Positions 944 to 5,973 of a DNA stretch of 7,155 bases are shown in pieces (within the stretch, counting starts at the first letter, position 1; each line of letters begins with the position of its first letter). Source of the stretch: an uncultured Streptomyces sp. (lineage in GTDB: Bacteria; Actinomycetota; Actinomycetes; Streptomycetales; Streptomycetaceae); the NCBI GenBank assembly GCA_946480485.1, contig CAMLJW010000274.1:1-7155 (forward strand). Reading direction: 5' to 3'. A program made the translations under genes and the position numbers. The notes under the pieces were generated by a model. That model saw only the letters and a list, made by a program, of their open reading frames with translations, had not been told where the DNA came from and did no database searches.

Positions 944-1845
944 CGGGCGGCGACCTCCTCGGCGTTGGGGAAGGAGGCCTGGGCGCCCTGCCGGGTGACG
1001 GCCGCGGCGCCCACGCGCGCCGCGTACGCGGCGGCTTGAGCGAGCGACTCCCCGAGCCCCAGCCGCCAGGCCAGGGCCGCGGTGAAGGAGTCGCCCGCAC
1101 CCGTCGTGTCCACGGCGTCGACCTTCACGGAGGGGACGTGGGCCACCTCGGTGGTGTCGGCGATGAGTGCGCCCTCTTCTCCCAGGGTGACGACCACCGA
1201 GCGCGGGCCCCGGGCGAGGAGTGTCTGGGCCCACTGGGCGGGGGTTTCGGCCGCGTCCGGGCCCAGGAGCACCCGCGCCTCGTGCTCGTTCACGATCAGC
1301 GGGTCGCAGGCGGCCAGCACGTCCTCCGGCAGCTGTCGGGGCGGCGAGGGGTTCAGTACGAAGCGGGTGTCGGGCCCCAGGTTCCGTACCACCTCCACGA
1401 TCGTCTCCAGCGGGATCTCCAGCTGTGCGGAGACCACCCTGGAGGCCGTGAGGAGCGCGGCGGCCGCTCGTACGTCCGCGGGCGTCAGGCGGGCGTTGGC
1501 GCCCGGCGACACCACGATGCTGTTGTCGCCGGACGGGTCCACCGTGATTAGCGCGACGCCGGTGGGCGCCCCGCCGACGAGGACGCCGGCCGTGTTGACA
1601 CCGGCCGCCCTCTGCGAGTCGAGCAGCAGGCGGCCGTGCGCGTCGTCACCGACGCGGGCCAGCAGCGCCGTACGGGCGCCGAGGCGGGCGGCGGCGACCG
1701 CCTGGTTCGCGCCCTTGCCGCCCGGATGGACGGCCAGATCGGAGCCGAGGACCGTCTCCCCGGGGCCGGGGCGGCGTTCGACACCGATCACCAGGTCGGC
1801 GTTGGCCGAACCGACGACCAGCAGGTCGTAGTCGTAGTCGTACAT
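940..1845 (-). CDS. rbsK: Ribokinase (PfkB family)
   Basis: This is a 301-residue sugar kinase, full length for the family, which phosphorylates ribose to ribose 5-phosphate in the cytoplasm using ATP. All landmark motifs are in order. GSANAD at 12-17 is the sugar-binding segment. GGKGANQAVAAARLG at 42-56 is the N-terminal PfkB signature. QLEIP at 141-145 is present, as is NEHE at 186-189 (the N-x-x-E metal/phosphate motif). DTTGAGDSF at 246-254 is the C-terminal signature with anion hole GAG and catalytic base Asp252. The ATG at 1845 follows a strong Shine-Dalgarno (AGGGAGA) by 5 nt, and the protein starts with a (Tyr-Asp)3 run. The downstream partner rbsD overlaps the stop but is truncated. 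Upstream, the right end of a TnpB element stops about 12 nt before the ATG, so the native promoter is displaced and expression probably depends on read-through from the element. No frameshift or missing catalytic residue is visible. Confidence 0.93.
   Translation of the reverse strand: MYDYDYDLLVVGSANADLVIGVERRPGPGETVLGSDLAVHPGGKGANQAVAAARLGARTALLARVGDDAHGRLLLDSQRAAGVNTAGVLVGGAPTGVALITVDPSGDNSIVVSPGANARLTPADVRAAAALLTASRVVSAQLEIPLETIVEVVRNLGPDTRFVLNPSPPRQLPEDVLAACDPLIVNEHEARVLLGPDAAETPAQWAQTLLARGPRSVVVTLGEEGALIADTTEVAHVPSVKVDAVDTTGAGDSFTAALAWRLGLGESLAQAAAYAARVGAAAVTRQGAQASFPNAEEVAAR
1825..1842 (-). repeat. Three tandem TACGAC hexamers at the rbsK 5' end
   Basis: Immediately after the rbsK ATG the minus strand reads TACGAC three times, encoding Tyr-Asp-Tyr-Asp-Tyr-Asp. 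The hexamer is in frame, so slippage would change the number of dipeptides without a frameshift. The first unit falls within the inferred guide of the adjacent omega RNA. Confidence 0.7.
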
Positions 1846-2010
1846 CAGTCTCTCCCTTTGACATCCTCCGCCTCTTAAGAGAGGGGGATTTCAACCCGTA
1901 TGGGCTGAGGTTCACGGACGCTCTTGGACCGCTTGGGCAGTGTCGTCCCTCCGGCACCGGCTGAGCGCCGGGGGCGGGGGATCCCGCCCTGTCCTGCCGC
2001 GACGTTGGTT
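1838..2010 (-). ncRNA. Inferred omega RNA (reRNA) of TnpB, with guide covering the rbsK start
   Basis: TnpB nucleases use a non-coding RNA that overlaps the 3' end of tnpB and ends at the element's right end; the next 16-20 nt of flanking DNA act as the guide. Here the minus strand shows the expected order: the tnpB 3' coding region, a terminal hairpin (1867-1888) with the tnpB stop codon at its loop edge, then GGAGGATGTCAA and the flank. The guide would be AGGGAGAGACTGATGTACGA (1857-1838), which contains the rbsK Shine-Dalgarno and ATG. The scaffold 5' boundary at about 2010 is a guess from the usual length of about 150 nt; only the right-end features are visible. The RNA may be processed from the tnpB transcript. 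Confidence 0.5.
1867..1888 (-). repeat. Right-end hairpin of the TnpB element
   Basis: On the minus strand the stem is TCC-C-CCTCT / AGAGG-C-GGA around a CTTA loop: nine positions with one internal C-C mismatch. It lies 6 nt before the TCAA cleavage motif. The last tnpB codons and the TAA stop are inside it, so coding and RNA-structural functions overlap. This is the standard place for the subterminal hairpin recognised by TnpA and forming the 3' stem of the omega RNA. Confidence 0.65.
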
Positions 2011-3206
2011 GCTGCATTGGTGTCCGCGTTGCAGGTGAAGCCGCAGGAGGAACAGACGAACTCGGCTTGGCTCTTGCGCGAGTTCTTGTCGATCCATCCG
2101 CAGGCACTGCACCGCAGACTCGTGTACGGGGCGGGAACGTCCTCGATGCGTCCGGGGGCCTTGTGCTCGGTGCGCTGCCGCAGAAGACCCCAGCCCTGGG
2201 CGAGGACGGCCCGGTTGAGGCCGGACTTCTGGGCGACGTTCTTGCCGGGCTGCTCGACGGTTCCCTTCGCCGAGCGGGTCATGTTCTTGATGTTCAGCTT
2301 CTCGAACCGCACCAGGTCGTAGGTGCGGGCGAGCATGGTGCTGGTCTTTTCGCACCAGTCCTTGCGCCGGCCGGCCTCACGCGCCTTGAGTTTGGCGACC
2401 TTGGCGCACTCGGCCGCTTTCTCGGGACTGCTCTTCTTCGCCCGTGCCGCGCGCCGCTCGTGTTTGCGGATGTGGGCGCGTTCCTTGACGGTGAGCTGCG
2501 GGCACATCAACGTGCGCCCGTCGGATAGGGCCGCCGTGATCGTCACGCCCCGGTCGATACCGATGACCTCGCCCGTGCCGGGCGCGGGGGTCGGCTCGGG
2601 GATGATGGCGAAGGCGATGTGCCACTGGCCGTTACGGAAGGTGACCCGGAACGTTTTCGCGTCGGGCAGCACCGCGCCCTTGCCCTTGACGCTGAGGCGG
2701 AAACGGACCCAGCCGCAGCCGGGGACCTTGACCTGCGCCCACCTGCGGTTGAGCTTGTGAACGACGACGGACCGGCCCATGACCTGCTTGCCGGTCTTGA
2801 CGTTCAGCTTCGGCGAGCCGTCCTCGTTGTACTCGGGCACGCGGTCGGTGCCGATGACCCGGAAGCCCTCGTGCCGGAACTTCTTGCGCCAGGTCGGCTC
2901 ACCGAACCCGGAGGCGAAGCGGGCGTTCTTGGCCTTGGCGAAGTCCTTCAGAGCCTGTTGCTGCACGTCCGCGTTCCCGGCGCCCAGCCACTCACTCTCC
3001 CGCCGAGCCTCGGTGAGTTGGCGGCACTGCTCGGCGAAACCCGGCGCGGACGTGCGCCACCGGCGCCAGTGCGCGTGCTGTTCGACGGCGAGGTTCCAGA
3101 CGTACCGGGCGTGCGCGCAGTGCATGAGCATCTGCTCTTCCTGCTCGTGCGTCGGGTACATCCGGAAACGTGACGTGCCGCCATGGTAGTGGCACCATGG
3201 CGGCAT
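1875..3206 (-). CDS. tnpB: RNA-guided endonuclease TnpB (IS200/IS605 OrfB)
   Basis: TnpB is the RuvC-type, omega-RNA-guided DNA endonuclease ancestral to Cas12. It cuts the empty donor site next to a TAM and so helps the element persist. The open frame from an upstream ATG at 3227 has 450 residues; in that numbering the N-terminal strand RFRMYPTHEQE is at 20-30. The RuvC triad is Asp225 (GIDRG), Glu309 (RFEKLNIKNM) and Asp402 (CNADTNAATN). The zinc ribbon has Cys373/376 (LRCSACG) and Cys392/395 (CSSCG). All key residues are present, so it should be catalytically competent. The start is uncertain. I give the ATG at 3206, whose codon interlocks with the divergent RHH start; ATG 3227 and ATG 3161 are alternatives, none with a clear Shine-Dalgarno. 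A candidate promoter (TTGACC-18-TACCAT) would start transcription near 3176, favouring 3161, but that start would remove the conserved RFR strand. The stop lies in the right-end hairpin. Confidence 0.92.
   Translation of the reverse strand: MPPWCHYHGGTSRFRMYPTHEQEEQMLMHCAHARYVWNLAVEQHAHWRRWRTSAPGFAEQCRQLTEARRESEWLGAGNADVQQQALKDFAKAKNARFASGFGEPTWRKKFRHEGFRVIGTDRVPEYNEDGSPKLNVKTGKQVMGRSVVVHKLNRRWAQVKVPGCGWVRFRLSVKGKGAVLPDAKTFRVTFRNGQWHIAFAIIPEPTPAPGTGEVIGIDRGVTITAALSDGRTLMCPQLTVKERAHIRKHERRAARAKKSSPEKAAECAKVAKLKAREAGRRKDWCEKTSTMLARTYDLVRFEKLNIKNMTRSAKGTVEQPGKNVAQKSGLNRAVLAQGWGLLRQRTEHKAPGRIEDVPAPYTSLRCSACGWIDKNSRKSQAEFVCSSCGFTCNADTNAATNVAAGQGGIPRPRRSAGAGGTTLPKRSKSVREPQPIRVEIPLS
3176..3205. promoter_or_regulatory. 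Perfect 12-bp-arm palindrome at the RHH/tnpB divergent starts (candidate operator)
   Basis: The arms TGCCGCCATGGT (3176-3187) and ACCATGGCGGCA (3194-3205) are exact reverse complements separated by 6 bp. The right arm ends on the A of the RHH ATG, and the palindrome covers the -10 and spacer of the candidate tnpB promoter. RHH repressors commonly bind palindromic operators overlapping their own promoter, so autoregulation plus tnpB control is a reasonable inference. It could instead be a left-end hairpin used by TnpA, or a structure in the tnpB mRNA (it would encode PPWCHYHGG if translated). Confidence 0.6.
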
Positions 3207-3212
3207 GGTCAA
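3183..3212 (-). promoter_or_regulatory. Candidate tnpB promoter
   Basis: On the minus strand TTGACC (3212-3207) and TACCAT (3188-3183) form a -35/-10 pair with an 18-bp spacer. Five of six -35 bases match TTGACA, and the -10 fits TAnnnT. Transcription would begin near 3176. The -35 lies at the 5' end of the RHH coding sequence, and the -10 is inside the 12-bp-arm palindrome, so a protein bound there would block RNA polymerase. Confidence 0.35.
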
Positions 3213-3354
3213 AGTCACGGTCCGCATCCCGGATGAGCTTCACGCCCGACTGGTCGCGCAAGCAGAAACCGACCGGCGGTCCCTCAACTCCGAGATCCTG
3301 CATCTGCTTGAAGTCGTCCTCACCACCGTGGAGCAAGACGACCAATCGCCCTGA
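3205..3354 (+). CDS. Small Arc-type ribbon-helix-helix DNA-binding protein
   Basis: This is a 49-residue protein beginning MVKVTVRIPDELHARLVAQA and continuing through ETDRRSLNSEILHLLE. It has the RHH layout: a short basic beta strand (VKVTVRIP, 2-9), helix A (DELHARLVAQAETD, 10-23), a turn with R-R-S-L-N (24-28), and helix B (SEILHLLEVVLTTVE, 29-43). RHH proteins dimerise through the strand, which reads DNA bases in the major groove, and often act as autoregulatory repressors. An in-frame TAG at 3187 excludes a longer N-terminus. No good Shine-Dalgarno is visible before the ATG, so expression may be weak or initiated unusually. The gene is divergent from tnpB and the two candidate start codons overlap on CATG (3204-3207). 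The CTT, CGA, CAA, GCA and GAA codons make it less GC-biased than the host genes, which fits a mobile origin. Its targets are not known; the adjacent palindrome is the obvious candidate. Confidence 0.75.
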   Translation: MVKVTVRIPDELHARLVAQAETDRRSLNSEILHLLEVVLTTVEQDDQSP

Positions 3355-3363
3355 AGGCGATTG
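3343..3363 (+). terminator. Hairpin overlapping the RHH stop codon (possible terminator or left-end structure)
   Basis: CAATCGCC (3343-3350) and GGCGATTG (3356-3363) form an 8-bp perfect stem with a CTGAA loop that contains the RHH stop codon. The sequence after it, CTCTTTCCC, is only weakly T-rich, so intrinsic termination is plausible but not certain. It may equally be the first of several left-end hairpins of the IS element. Confidence 0.4.
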
Positions 3364-3372
3364 CTCTTTCCC

Positions 3373-3432
3373 TGCCCCGCTACGCGGGAACGGGCATTCC
3401 CCCGGCCCTGAAGGACCGGGCACCCTGCCCGG
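3373..3432. repeat. Cluster of hairpins at the presumed left end of the TnpB element
   Basis: Three more stems follow the RHH hairpin. The first is TGCCC (3373-3377) with GGGCA (3392-3396), enclosing CCCGC/GCGGG (3376-3388). The second is CCCGGCCC (3401-3408) with GGACCGGG (3413-3420), which pairs fully only in minus-strand RNA thanks to one G-U pair. The third is CCGGGCA (3416-3422) with TGCCCGG (3426-3432). The second carries a TTCA loop on the minus strand, like many right-end hairpins of this element class. Such structure is expected in the single-stranded ends recognised by TnpA, which is why I place the element's left boundary near here. The exact cleavage point is not resolved. Confidence 0.45.
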
Positions 3433-3522
3433 AGAGATCGGTGGATCCCCGTAGGTCCCCTTAGATTCCCGTAGATCCCGTGGGTCCGCGTGCCGGTCGG
3501 TCGGCTCCGGGATGCTCGCCAT
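3433..3522 (-). other. Orphan ribosome-binding site and ATG leading into the element (possible interrupted gene start)
   Basis: On the minus strand a strong Shine-Dalgarno (GAGGAGGTGG) precedes an ATG at 3522-3520. The frame begins MASIPEPTDRHADPRDLRE and stays open across the left-end hairpins into tnpB (stop near 2992, in a frame different from tnpB). The first 30 residues are polar and low-complexity, partly encoded by the 10-bp repeats. The ribosome-binding site is better than those of tnpB or recD2. One reading is that this was the 5' end of a gene in the rbsK operon that the element separated from its body; another is chance. No family was recognised. Confidence 0.3.
3445..3484. repeat. 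Four degenerate 10-bp tandem repeats
   Basis: The consecutive units ATCCCCGTAG, GTCCCCTTAG, ATTCCCGTAG and ATCCCGTGGG differ from the first by 2, 1 and several bases. A 10-bp period equals about one helical turn, so the units would present the same DNA face. They lie just outside the presumed left end of the TnpB element, between the rbsK side and recD2. Function unknown. Confidence 0.55.
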
Positions 3523-3678
3523 CGCCGGACCACCTCCTCGTGCGTCCGCGGAGTCGATGACACGGAGGGTTGGAAATCGATCACCCCCAGCATGACAAGA
3601 CCTGGGACGGGATCGTGGCGAAGTTGTCCGCAGGCTCCGTTGTGCCCACAGCCTCCGCGCACTGTCGGACCCGGGCGG

Positions 3679-3690: not shown

Positions 3691-5973
3691 ATGTCCAATC
3701 AGGCGGCGAAGCAGGCGGGGAACCAGGCGGGTACCGGGGTGCGCAACCTCGCGGTTCTCGAGGGCGTGCTGGAGCGGATCACGTACGCCAACGAGGAGAA
3801 CGGCTACACGGTCGCCCGGGTGGACATCGGCCGTGGCGGCGGCGATCTGCTCACCGTCGTGGGCGCGCTGCTCGGTGCCCAGGTGGGGGAGTCCCTGCGC
3901 ATGGAGGGCCGCTGGGGCTCGCATCCCCAGTACGGCAAGCAGTTCACGGTGGAGAACTACACGACGGTGCTGCCGGCGACCGTCCAGGGCATCCGCCGCT
4001 ATCTGGGCTCCGGCCTGGTCAAGGGCATCGGCCCGGTCTTCGCGGACCGCATCACCCAGCACTTCGGGCTCGACACCCTCCAGATCATCGAGGAGGAGCC
4101 GAAGCGCCTGATCGAGGTGCCGGGGCTCGGCCCCAAGCGCACCAAGAAGATCGCCGACGCCTGGGAGGAGCAGAAGGCGATCAAGGAGGTCATGCTCTTC
4201 CTGCAGACCGTCGAGGTGTCCACGTCGATCGCGGTCCGTATCTACAAGAAGTACGGCGACGCGTCGATCTCGGTCGTCAAGAACCAGCCGTACCGCCTGG
4301 CGTCCGACGTCTGGGGAATCGGCTTCCTCACCGCCGACAGGATCGCCCAGTCCGTCGGCATCCCGCACGACAGCCCGGAGCGCGTCAAGGCCGGTCTTCA
4401 GTACGCCCTTTCGCAGTCCACCGACCAGGGCCACTGCTTCCTCCCGGAGGAGCAGCTGATCGCGGACGCGGTGAAGCTGCTCCAGGTGGACACCGGGCTG
4501 GTCATCGAGTGCCTGGGGGAGCTGGCGGCCCCCGAGGAGGAGGGCGCCGACCCCGGAGTCGTGCGGGAAAAGGTCCCCGGACATGACGGCGCCGACCCCG
4601 TGACGGCCGTCTACCTGGTCCCCTTCCACCGGGCCGAAATGTCCCTGTCCGCCCAGCTGTTGCGTCTCCTGCGCACGGGCGAGGACCGGATGCCGGGCTT
4701 CAGGGACGTGGCCTGGGACAAGGCGCTGGCCTGGCTCAAGGGGTGTACGGGCGCGGATCTCGCCCCCGAGCAGGAGCAGGCGGTCCGGCTCGCGCTCACG
4801 CAGAAGGTCGCCGTACTCACCGGAGGCCCGGGCTGCGGCAAGTCCTTCACGGTCCGCTCGGTCGTCGAGCTGGCCCGCGCCAAAAAGGCCAAGGTCGTGC
4901 TGGCCGCGCCCACCGGACGGGCCGCCAAGCGGCTCTCGGAGCTGACCGGCGCCGATGCCTCGACCGTGCACCGGCTGCTGGAGCTGAAGCCGGGCGGCGA
5001 CGCGGCGTACGACAAGGACCGGCCGCTCGATGCCGACCTGGTGGTGGTCGACGAGGCGTCGATGCTGGACCTGCTGCTCGCCAACAAGCTGGTCAAGGCG
5101 GTGCCTGCGGGGGCACACCTGCTGTTCGTGGGCGACGTCGACCAGCTGCCGAGCGTCGGCGCGGGGGAGGTCCTGCGCGATCTGCTCGCCGACGGCGGCC
5201 CGGTGCCCGCGGTCCGCCTCACCCAGGTCTTCCGCCAGGCCCAGCAGTCCGGCGTCGTCACCAACGCGCACCGCATCAACTCCGGGCGGCATCCGGTCAC
5301 CGACGGCATGAAGGACTTCTTCCTCTTCGTCGAGGACGACACGGAGGAGGCGGGCCGGCTCACGGTGGACGTGGCGGCCCGGCGCATCCCCGCGAAGTTC
5401 GGCCTCGATCCGCGCCGTGACGTCCAGGTCCTCGCCCCCATGCACCGTGGCCCGGCGGGCGCCGGCAACCTCAACGGGCTGCTCCAGCAGGCGATCACCC
5501 CCGCCCGCCCCGACCTGGCCGAGAAGCGTTTCGGCGGCCGTGTCTTTCGCGCCGGAGACAAGGTCACGCAGATCCGCAACAATTATGAGAAGGGCAAGAA
5601 CGGTGTCTTCAACGGCACCGTAGGCGTAGTCACCTCGCTCAATCTGGACGACCAGCGTCTGACGGTGCTGACGGACGAGGACGAGGAGGTGCCGTACGAG
5701 TTCGACGAGCTCGACGAACTGGCGCACGCGTACGCGGTGACGATCCACCGTTCCCAGGGCAGTGAGTACCCGGCGGTGGTGATCCCGGTGACCACCGGGG
5801 CCTGGATGATGCTCCAGCGCAACCTGCTCTACACGGCGGTCACCCGAGCCAAGAAGCTCGTCGTGCTGGTCGGTTCACGCAAAGCCGTAGGTCAGGCGGT
5901 GCGCACGGTGTCGGCGGGACGGCGCCGTACCGCCCTCGACTTCAGGCTCTCACCCCGGCCTCTCGGCACGTGA
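3691..5973 (+). CDS. recD2: RecD2-type 5'-3' DNA helicase (SF1B, ATP-dependent)
   Basis: This 760-residue protein has the full RecD2 architecture. The N-terminal part includes LEGVLERITYANEENGYTVA (about 18-37), a marker of RecD2/RecD-like proteins absent from RecBCD RecD. Tandem helix-hairpin-helix motifs lie at about 105-160 (VKGIGP 110-115; VPGLGPKRTKKIA 143-155). Helicase motifs follow: Walker A GGPGCGKS 378-385, Walker B VVDEAS 452-457, motif III GDVDQLPS 481-488, motif IV TQVFRQ 511-516, motif V TIHRSQGSE 684-692, and motif VI YTAVTRA 714-720. RecD2 enzymes unwind DNA 5' to 3' outside RecBCD and are linked to replication-fork maintenance and mismatch or recombination repair. An acidic, low-complexity loop with two GADP copies (about 280-303) lies before the motor domains. 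The ATG at 3691 lacks a Shine-Dalgarno and is probably leaderless. The gene is complete and is followed by a 209-bp gap to citrate synthase on the same strand; co-transcription is unlikely given the palindromes between them. Confidence 0.93.
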   Translation: MSNQAAKQAGNQAGTGVRNLAVLEGVLERITYANEENGYTVARVDIGRGGGDLLTVVGALLGAQVGESLRMEGRWGSHPQYGKQFTVENYTTVLPATVQGIRRYLGSGLVKGIGPVFADRITQHFGLDTLQIIEEEPKRLIEVPGLGPKRTKKIADAWEEQKAIKEVMLFLQTVEVSTSIAVRIYKKYGDASISVVKNQPYRLASDVWGIGFLTADRIAQSVGIPHDSPERVKAGLQYALSQSTDQGHCFLPEEQLIADAVKLLQVDTGLVIECLGELAAPEEEGADPGVVREKVPGHDGADPVTAVYLVPFHRAEMSLSAQLLRLLRTGEDRMPGFRDVAWDKALAWLKGCTGADLAPEQEQAVRLALTQKVAVLTGGPGCGKSFTVRSVVELARAKKAKVVLAAPTGRAAKRLSELTGADASTVHRLLELKPGGDAAYDKDRPLDADLVVVDEASMLDLLLANKLVKAVPAGAHLLFVGDVDQLPSVGAGEVLRDLLADGGPVPAVRLTQVFRQAQQSGVVTNAHRINSGRHPVTDGMKDFFLFVEDDTEEAGRLTVDVAARRIPAKFGLDPRRDVQVLAPMHRGPAGAGNLNGLLQQAITPARPDLAEKRFGGRVFRAGDKVTQIRNNYEKGKNGVFNGTVGVVTSLNLDDQRLTVLTDEDEEVPYEFDELDELAHAYAVTIHRSQGSEYPAVVIPVTTGAWMMLQRNLLYTAVTRAKKLVVLVGSRKAVGQAVRTVSAGRRRTALDFRLSPRPLGT

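Follow-up and report, generated by a model that had tools for sequence, protein, structure and literature searches.

An element of the IS200/IS605 type, carrying tnpB and the region of an omega RNA, very likely entered the leader of the ribokinase gene rbsK on the 3' side of a CCAC motif and is probably held there by guided cutting of the empty allele. The best reading of the data is a system of a known kind that is retained selfishly, and our analysis supports the sequence-only reading, made earlier of the same DNA, in its preference for this as the simpler explanation. The right boundary of the element, the CCAC motif, the empty sites of other copies, the RNA fold and the catalytic triad together indicate that the guide is very probably AGGGAGAGACTGATGTACGA. 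The copies compared here define a Streptomyces TnpB family with defined ends, CCAC as its likely target-adjacent motif (TAM) and a supported RNA fold, all of which can be tested in vitro.

The window (the whole 7,155-nucleotide stretch of DNA that was analyzed) reads on its minus strand, in order, recD2-side DNA, an rbsR remnant (3522 to 3511), 70 nt, the TnpB element (3440 to 1858), a 12-nt leader and rbsK (1845 to 940). Its features, with the basis of each in parentheses, are as follows.

1858 to 3440, minus strand: IS200/IS605-type element with tnpB (right end conserved in relatives; left end from alignment to relatives)
3441 to 3444, minus strand: likely TAM and target motif CCAC, ATCCAC in the window, directly outside the left end (relatives' left ends)
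1875 to 3227, minus strand: tnpB, 450 aa as listed, true start possibly further in (NF040570, PF01385, PF07282, PF12323)
1858 to 1987, minus strand: putative scaffold of the omega RNA, 3' part, which overlaps the 3' end of tnpB (consensus fold with covariation)
1838 to 1857, minus strand: inferred guide AGGGAGAGACTGATGTACGA, which takes in the ribosome-binding site of rbsK, its start codon and the bases that follow (rule in the available text of PMC8612924 and PMC10278001)
940 to 1845, minus strand: rbsK, ribokinase, 301 aa (TIGR02152, PF00294)
3205 to 3354, plus strand: ribbon-helix-helix gene (Arc/HicB/FitA-like), 49 aa, within the element and divergent to tnpB (PF22513, PF03869, PF05534)
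3176 to 3205, no strand: candidate operator between the divergent genes, a perfect inverted repeat of 12 bp (TGCCGCCATGGT, 6 nt, ACCATGGCGGCA)
3511 to 3522, minus strand: rbsR remnant ATG GCG AGC ATC, after which the window diverges from relatives (local alignments)
3441 to 3510, minus strand: 70 nt from the rbs deletion breakpoint to the element, perhaps the native rbsK leader (weak similarity to relatives' leaders)

Elsewhere in the window, positions 119 to 604 of the minus strand encode a WXG100-like protein of 161 aa that scored above the Pfam cut-off and slightly under the NCBIfam cut-off.

Proposed mechanism

The TnpB guide rule and the retention model are those of PMC8612924 and PMC10278001 as given in the available text of both, the former proposing that TnpB cuts the joint left by excision and that repair restores the element. 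In ISDra2 of Deinococcus radiodurans, also of the IS200/IS605 type, the available text of PMC8612924 describes an reRNA from the tnpB 3' end and the right end, a guide taken from the DNA directly past the right end and a TAM that equals the insertion motif; in the available text of PMC10278001, the first 12 nt of the ISDra2 guide are those that matter. By analogy with such relatives, the TnpB of the window would bind the RNA made from its own 3' end, the omega RNA of this copy being predicted to end in AGGGAGAGACTG, and the next 16 to 20 nt would serve as the guide. The nuclease would then cut a chromosome in which CCAC is joined directly to the guide, that is, the allele that lost the element, and repair from the sister copy would restore the element. 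The occupied allele, in which the guide follows TGTCAA instead of CCAC, should escape cutting, and an rbsK leader of the same species that lacks the element is predicted to read CCAC followed directly by AGGGAGAGACTGATG. The window element would thus resemble the ISDra2 system, as far as the latter is covered by the source, in protein family, RNA origin, guide position and a TAM that equals the insertion motif, its activity being predicted. It differs in its motif, CCAC in the window and TTGAT in ISDra2, in that no tnpA was found in it, and in its divergent ribbon-helix-helix gene.

Right end of the element and position of the guide

Searching genome contigs with the TnpB protein gave 126 relatives, the best 80 of which were taken as loci. 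The right end of the window element, GGAGGATGTCAA (minus strand, 1869 to 1858), was found with at most one mismatch after tnpB in 77 of these 80 loci; the exceptions are L027 and L070, which break off close to the end of tnpB, and L040, whose right end differs. The first 20 nt past the right end were specific to each copy save in three locus pairs, two with identical right flanks (L001/L026 and L058/L066) and one with three differences (L049/L077), and these shared flanks point to the same insertion site or to shared descent. A conserved end followed by copy-specific DNA in 77 of the 80 loci demonstrates that the boundary at 1858/1857 is real. A sharp drop in conservation is also the criterion by which the available text of PMC10278001 sets the boundary between scaffold and guide, and it places the window boundary at 1858/1857 and the guide at 1857 to 1838.

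From this boundary to the rbsK ATG (1845 to 1843) is exactly 12 nt (1857 to 1846), in agreement with the distance of about 12 nt given in the sequence-only reading. That reading had also positioned the right end correctly, except that the end it gave, 1868, is one base short of 1869. Its proposal that under the TnpB rule the guide is the rbsK ribosome-binding site and start was borne out as well, since 1857 to 1838 reads AGGGAGAGACTGATGTACGA, made up of AGGGAG as ribosome-binding site, a short spacer, the ATG and the bases after it. In one relative, L065, the right end (near 5291 to 5340) is tandemly repeated, with two copies of GGAGGATGTCAA and a third, degenerate copy.

Left end, CCAC motif and empty sites

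When the 77 loci were aligned with the left-end core, from which the motif had been left out, 37 were scorable (score of at least 70), while the left ends of the other 40 scored too low to judge for CCAC. Of the 37 scorable relatives, 31 had CCAC in the 12 nt that precede the core, compared to 76 of 1,258 background 12-mers, and TCCAC preceded the core in 24 of the 37; six of the 37 lacked CCAC, so the motif is not universal. In the window, ATCCAC ends at 3441, outside the left end.

Empty sites were sought for three other copies by joining their flanks after CCAC and querying 199 Streptomyces genomes. For L041 and L053, all 20 loci fetched (1 and 19, respectively, among the matches listed) pass from CCAC into the guide without a gap. 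For L080, judged from the search matches alone and among those listed, matches in two genomes (G218 and G134) extend across the junction for the same length to either side. At all three empty sites the joined stretch contains an open frame, and in the genome of L053 itself (G038) the match splits at the junction, as an occupied site should. The junction check that had been suggested for empty sites therefore came out, for these three copies, with CCAC running directly into the guide. Other copies' left ends and empty sites point to insertion 3' of a fixed motif with no target duplication, and CCAC is the likely TAM.

Loss of the ribose operon genes

The flanks of the window element may never have formed one empty site: recombination between two copies, or a deletion started at the element, might have removed the ribose operon, in which case the guide would correspond to an older site, one that lay between rbsB and rbsK. 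The joined flanks were queried against 40 TnpB-carrying genomes, in 25 of which rbsK and the recD2-side piece were on one contig; the distance between the two pieces was about 4.6 to 4.8 kb in 24 of these 25 genomes and 1.2 kb in the other (G034). In relatives, a LacI-type regulator and transporter genes lie between the recD2-side piece and rbsK, and from their start sequences we take these to be rbsR, rbsA and rbsC/B. A 24-aa LacI-type N-terminus matched RbsR models. The similarity of the window to four relatives (L162, L163, L165 and L167) stops after rbsR codon 4, indicating that regulator and transporter are gone from the window, a loss that had escaped the sequence-only reading; the best alignment to L164 (genome G034) lies elsewhere. 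L164 was without the transporter genes only.

The absence of rbsR, rbsA and rbsC/B from the window and the spacing of the flank pieces in 24 of 25 genomes are what such a recombination or deletion would leave, but about 70 nt separate the element from the breakpoint, which follows codon 4 of rbsR, and the element is complete at both ends. The 70 nt also bear a weak likeness to a few of the 57 rbsK leaders compared from relatives (z against shuffles 5.2 at best, for L111, and 1.4 for the 15th best), which again speaks against this history. We consider it rather unlikely, and the rbs deletion is taken as an event separate from the insertion of the element.

The omega RNA fold and the TnpB protein

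From an alignment of the terminal 130 nt of the window copy and of 34 others hand-chosen from the 77 loci (35 in all), RNAalifold gave a consensus of 38 pairs. In a 32-pair version, 97.6% of cells were paired and 10 pairs had two-sided changes, neither value being matched in any of 500 shuffles, while the number of pair types was reached by 1 of 500 shuffles, and sliding the partners cut pairing to 33 to 55%; because the sequences scored are those that gave the fold, and because relatedness can lift sequences above shuffles, both controls lean towards the fold. The clearest covarying pairs exchange A-U for G-C (19 and 16 sequences) and G-C for C-G (19 and 14). When folded with the guide, the window RNA had a z of -2.29 versus shuffles, with 3 of 200 shuffles equally stable. 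Covariation in the 35 sequences thus points to a structured RNA at the 3' end that ends at the right end of the element. A sigma-70 scan of 1800 to 3600, of a kind that covers Streptomyces promoters poorly, gave a single promoter-like site (3212 to 3183, minus strand) and none near 1858 or inside the right end. A scan of the window against Rfam (E up to 1) gave a single match, under its gathering score and outside the omega RNA.

The TnpB protein scored 185.3 bits with NF040570 (cut-off 100) and was also over the cut-offs of PF01385, PF07282 and PF12323. It scored 66.5 bits with an IS607-type TnpB model (cut-off 350) and 125.5 bits with the narrow IS200-type model NF038281 (cut-off 425), which is of the 'exception' type with a high cut-off, so that this miss does not exclude the IS200-type family. 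By sequence it matched the solved chain 8bf8, presumably the ISDra2 TnpB, at 55 bits. The RuvC motif residues are D225, E309 and D402, which we take to be the catalytic positions of TnpB; they lie in motifs that align to PDB chains 9j09 and 9yyg, and the triad looks intact, as had been claimed. CxxC motifs start at 373 and 392. Against five chosen relatives, tnpB had dN/dS values of 0.37 (L001), 0.21 (L004), 0.17 (L005), 0.23 (L008) and 0.23 (L012), that for L001, the closest copy, being the weakest sign of constraint.

A silent relic with neither an active TnpB nor an omega RNA would fit the lack of any tnpA found in the element, where no transposase domain was detected and 10 further open reading frames in or across the element had no Pfam family. 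Elsewhere in the genome, the Y1 transposase family PF01797 was present in 13 of 18 related genomes searched and had no match in 5. Together with the missing tnpA, these 5 genomes suggest that mobility may need a partner or be lost, and an autonomous IS605 element with tnpA was rejected for want of a transposase domain in the element. The full-length reading frame, the triad motifs, the whole ends, the RNA fold and dN/dS values below 0.4 against five relatives make a silent relic decidedly unlikely.

The target of the guide and the rbsK leader

The rbsK product scored 299.8 bits with TIGR02152 (cut-off 299.65) and contains PF00294, and it was under the cut-off of NF008353; in relatives the gene adjoins a LacI-type regulator and transporter-like genes, which supports its identity as a ribokinase. 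The TAM plus guide (24 nt, at most 3 mismatches) matched in 1 of 392 Streptomyces genomes. Among these 392, all of other species, none had it at rbsK, the frame at the single match (starting MYDVRTTDS) being a different one, so the expectation that related strains would carry TAM and guide at their rbsK start failed. The nuclease would thus threaten mainly empty alleles of the same lineage. The proposed threat to chromosomes that lack the insertion stands for that lineage at most and falls for the rbsK starts of related strains generally.

Sixty-nine rbsK loci were examined, 65 of them with a recognizable start. AGGGAGA was present no more than 22 nt from the start in 19 of the 65, with GCAC directly before it in 8 and CCAC in 1 (L107); L113 and L162 belong to one genome, and counted by genome the motif was present in 18 of 64, with GCAC in 7. 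The nearest of the 392 genomes (G273, 95% identity over 315 nt before and into the citrate synthase gene) has GCAC followed by AGGGAGACAGTTCATG at its rbsK site. This leader and the others indicate that the position exists in relatives and that the guide there differs.

With the end of the scaffold 12 nt upstream of the ATG and on the rbsK strand, messages of rbsK with an ordinary leader would include the omega RNA. The window RNA is like those of TnpB orthologs that process their own mRNA, described in the available text of PMC10278001, in that the putative omega RNA overlaps the tnpB 3' end, and the same boundary method applies; unlike theirs, as far as that text goes, it continues directly into the ribosome-binding site of a host gene. 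The element could accordingly have been co-opted, with TnpB lowering ribokinase expression from the leader of the rbsK message or from the DNA of the rbsK start. The geometry read from the sequence would allow this, the ribosome-binding site being the guide, and AmaTnpB still cleaves DNA when its guide is followed by extra sequence (PMC10278001, available text). The same arrangement, an RNA guide over an expression signal of a host gene in a protein of the TnpB family, recalls the TldRs, the nuclease-dead TnpB-like repressors of PMC13418256 (available text). Unlike in the TldRs described there, the triad motifs of the window TnpB are intact, which disfavors TldR-like repression and led us to reject identity as a TldR, and its guide is the DNA adjacent to the element and was not found at rbsK in other species. 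The position at rbsK is confined to the window copy (0 of 77 other copies, with no match to rbsK within up to 1200 nt beyond their right ends), and a conserved link between this TnpB family and rbsK was rejected on these grounds. In a crude scan of the first 17 nt of the flank, a start codon and ribosome-binding site occurred in 3 of 78 copies, one of them L065, where they fall inside the repeated right end. Co-option is very unlikely under this evidence; under selfish retention, the overlap of the guide with the rbsK ribosome-binding site and start codon would be no more than a consequence of where the element landed.

There is a slim chance that the rbsK message is itself the omega RNA and that TnpB, binding in cis, hides the ribosome-binding site and makes ribokinase expression TnpB dependent, which would be a translational switch built from a selfish element. 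Because the guide and the host ribosome-binding site are the same nucleotides, any cis effect of TnpB binding on translation could be measured. No description of a guide that is a ribosome-binding site was found among the literature titles and abstract openings retrieved.

The divergent ribbon-helix-helix gene

The retrieved titles and abstract openings likewise gave no description of a ribbon-helix-helix gene in a TnpB element. A homologous open reading frame was present in 40 of the 80 loci, always antisense to tnpB, and 9 of the 40 stretches between it and tnpB contained exact inverted arms of at least 8 bp. The occurrence of this gene in 40 of the 80 copies sampled points to control of TnpB, its product being a possible repressor of tnpB.
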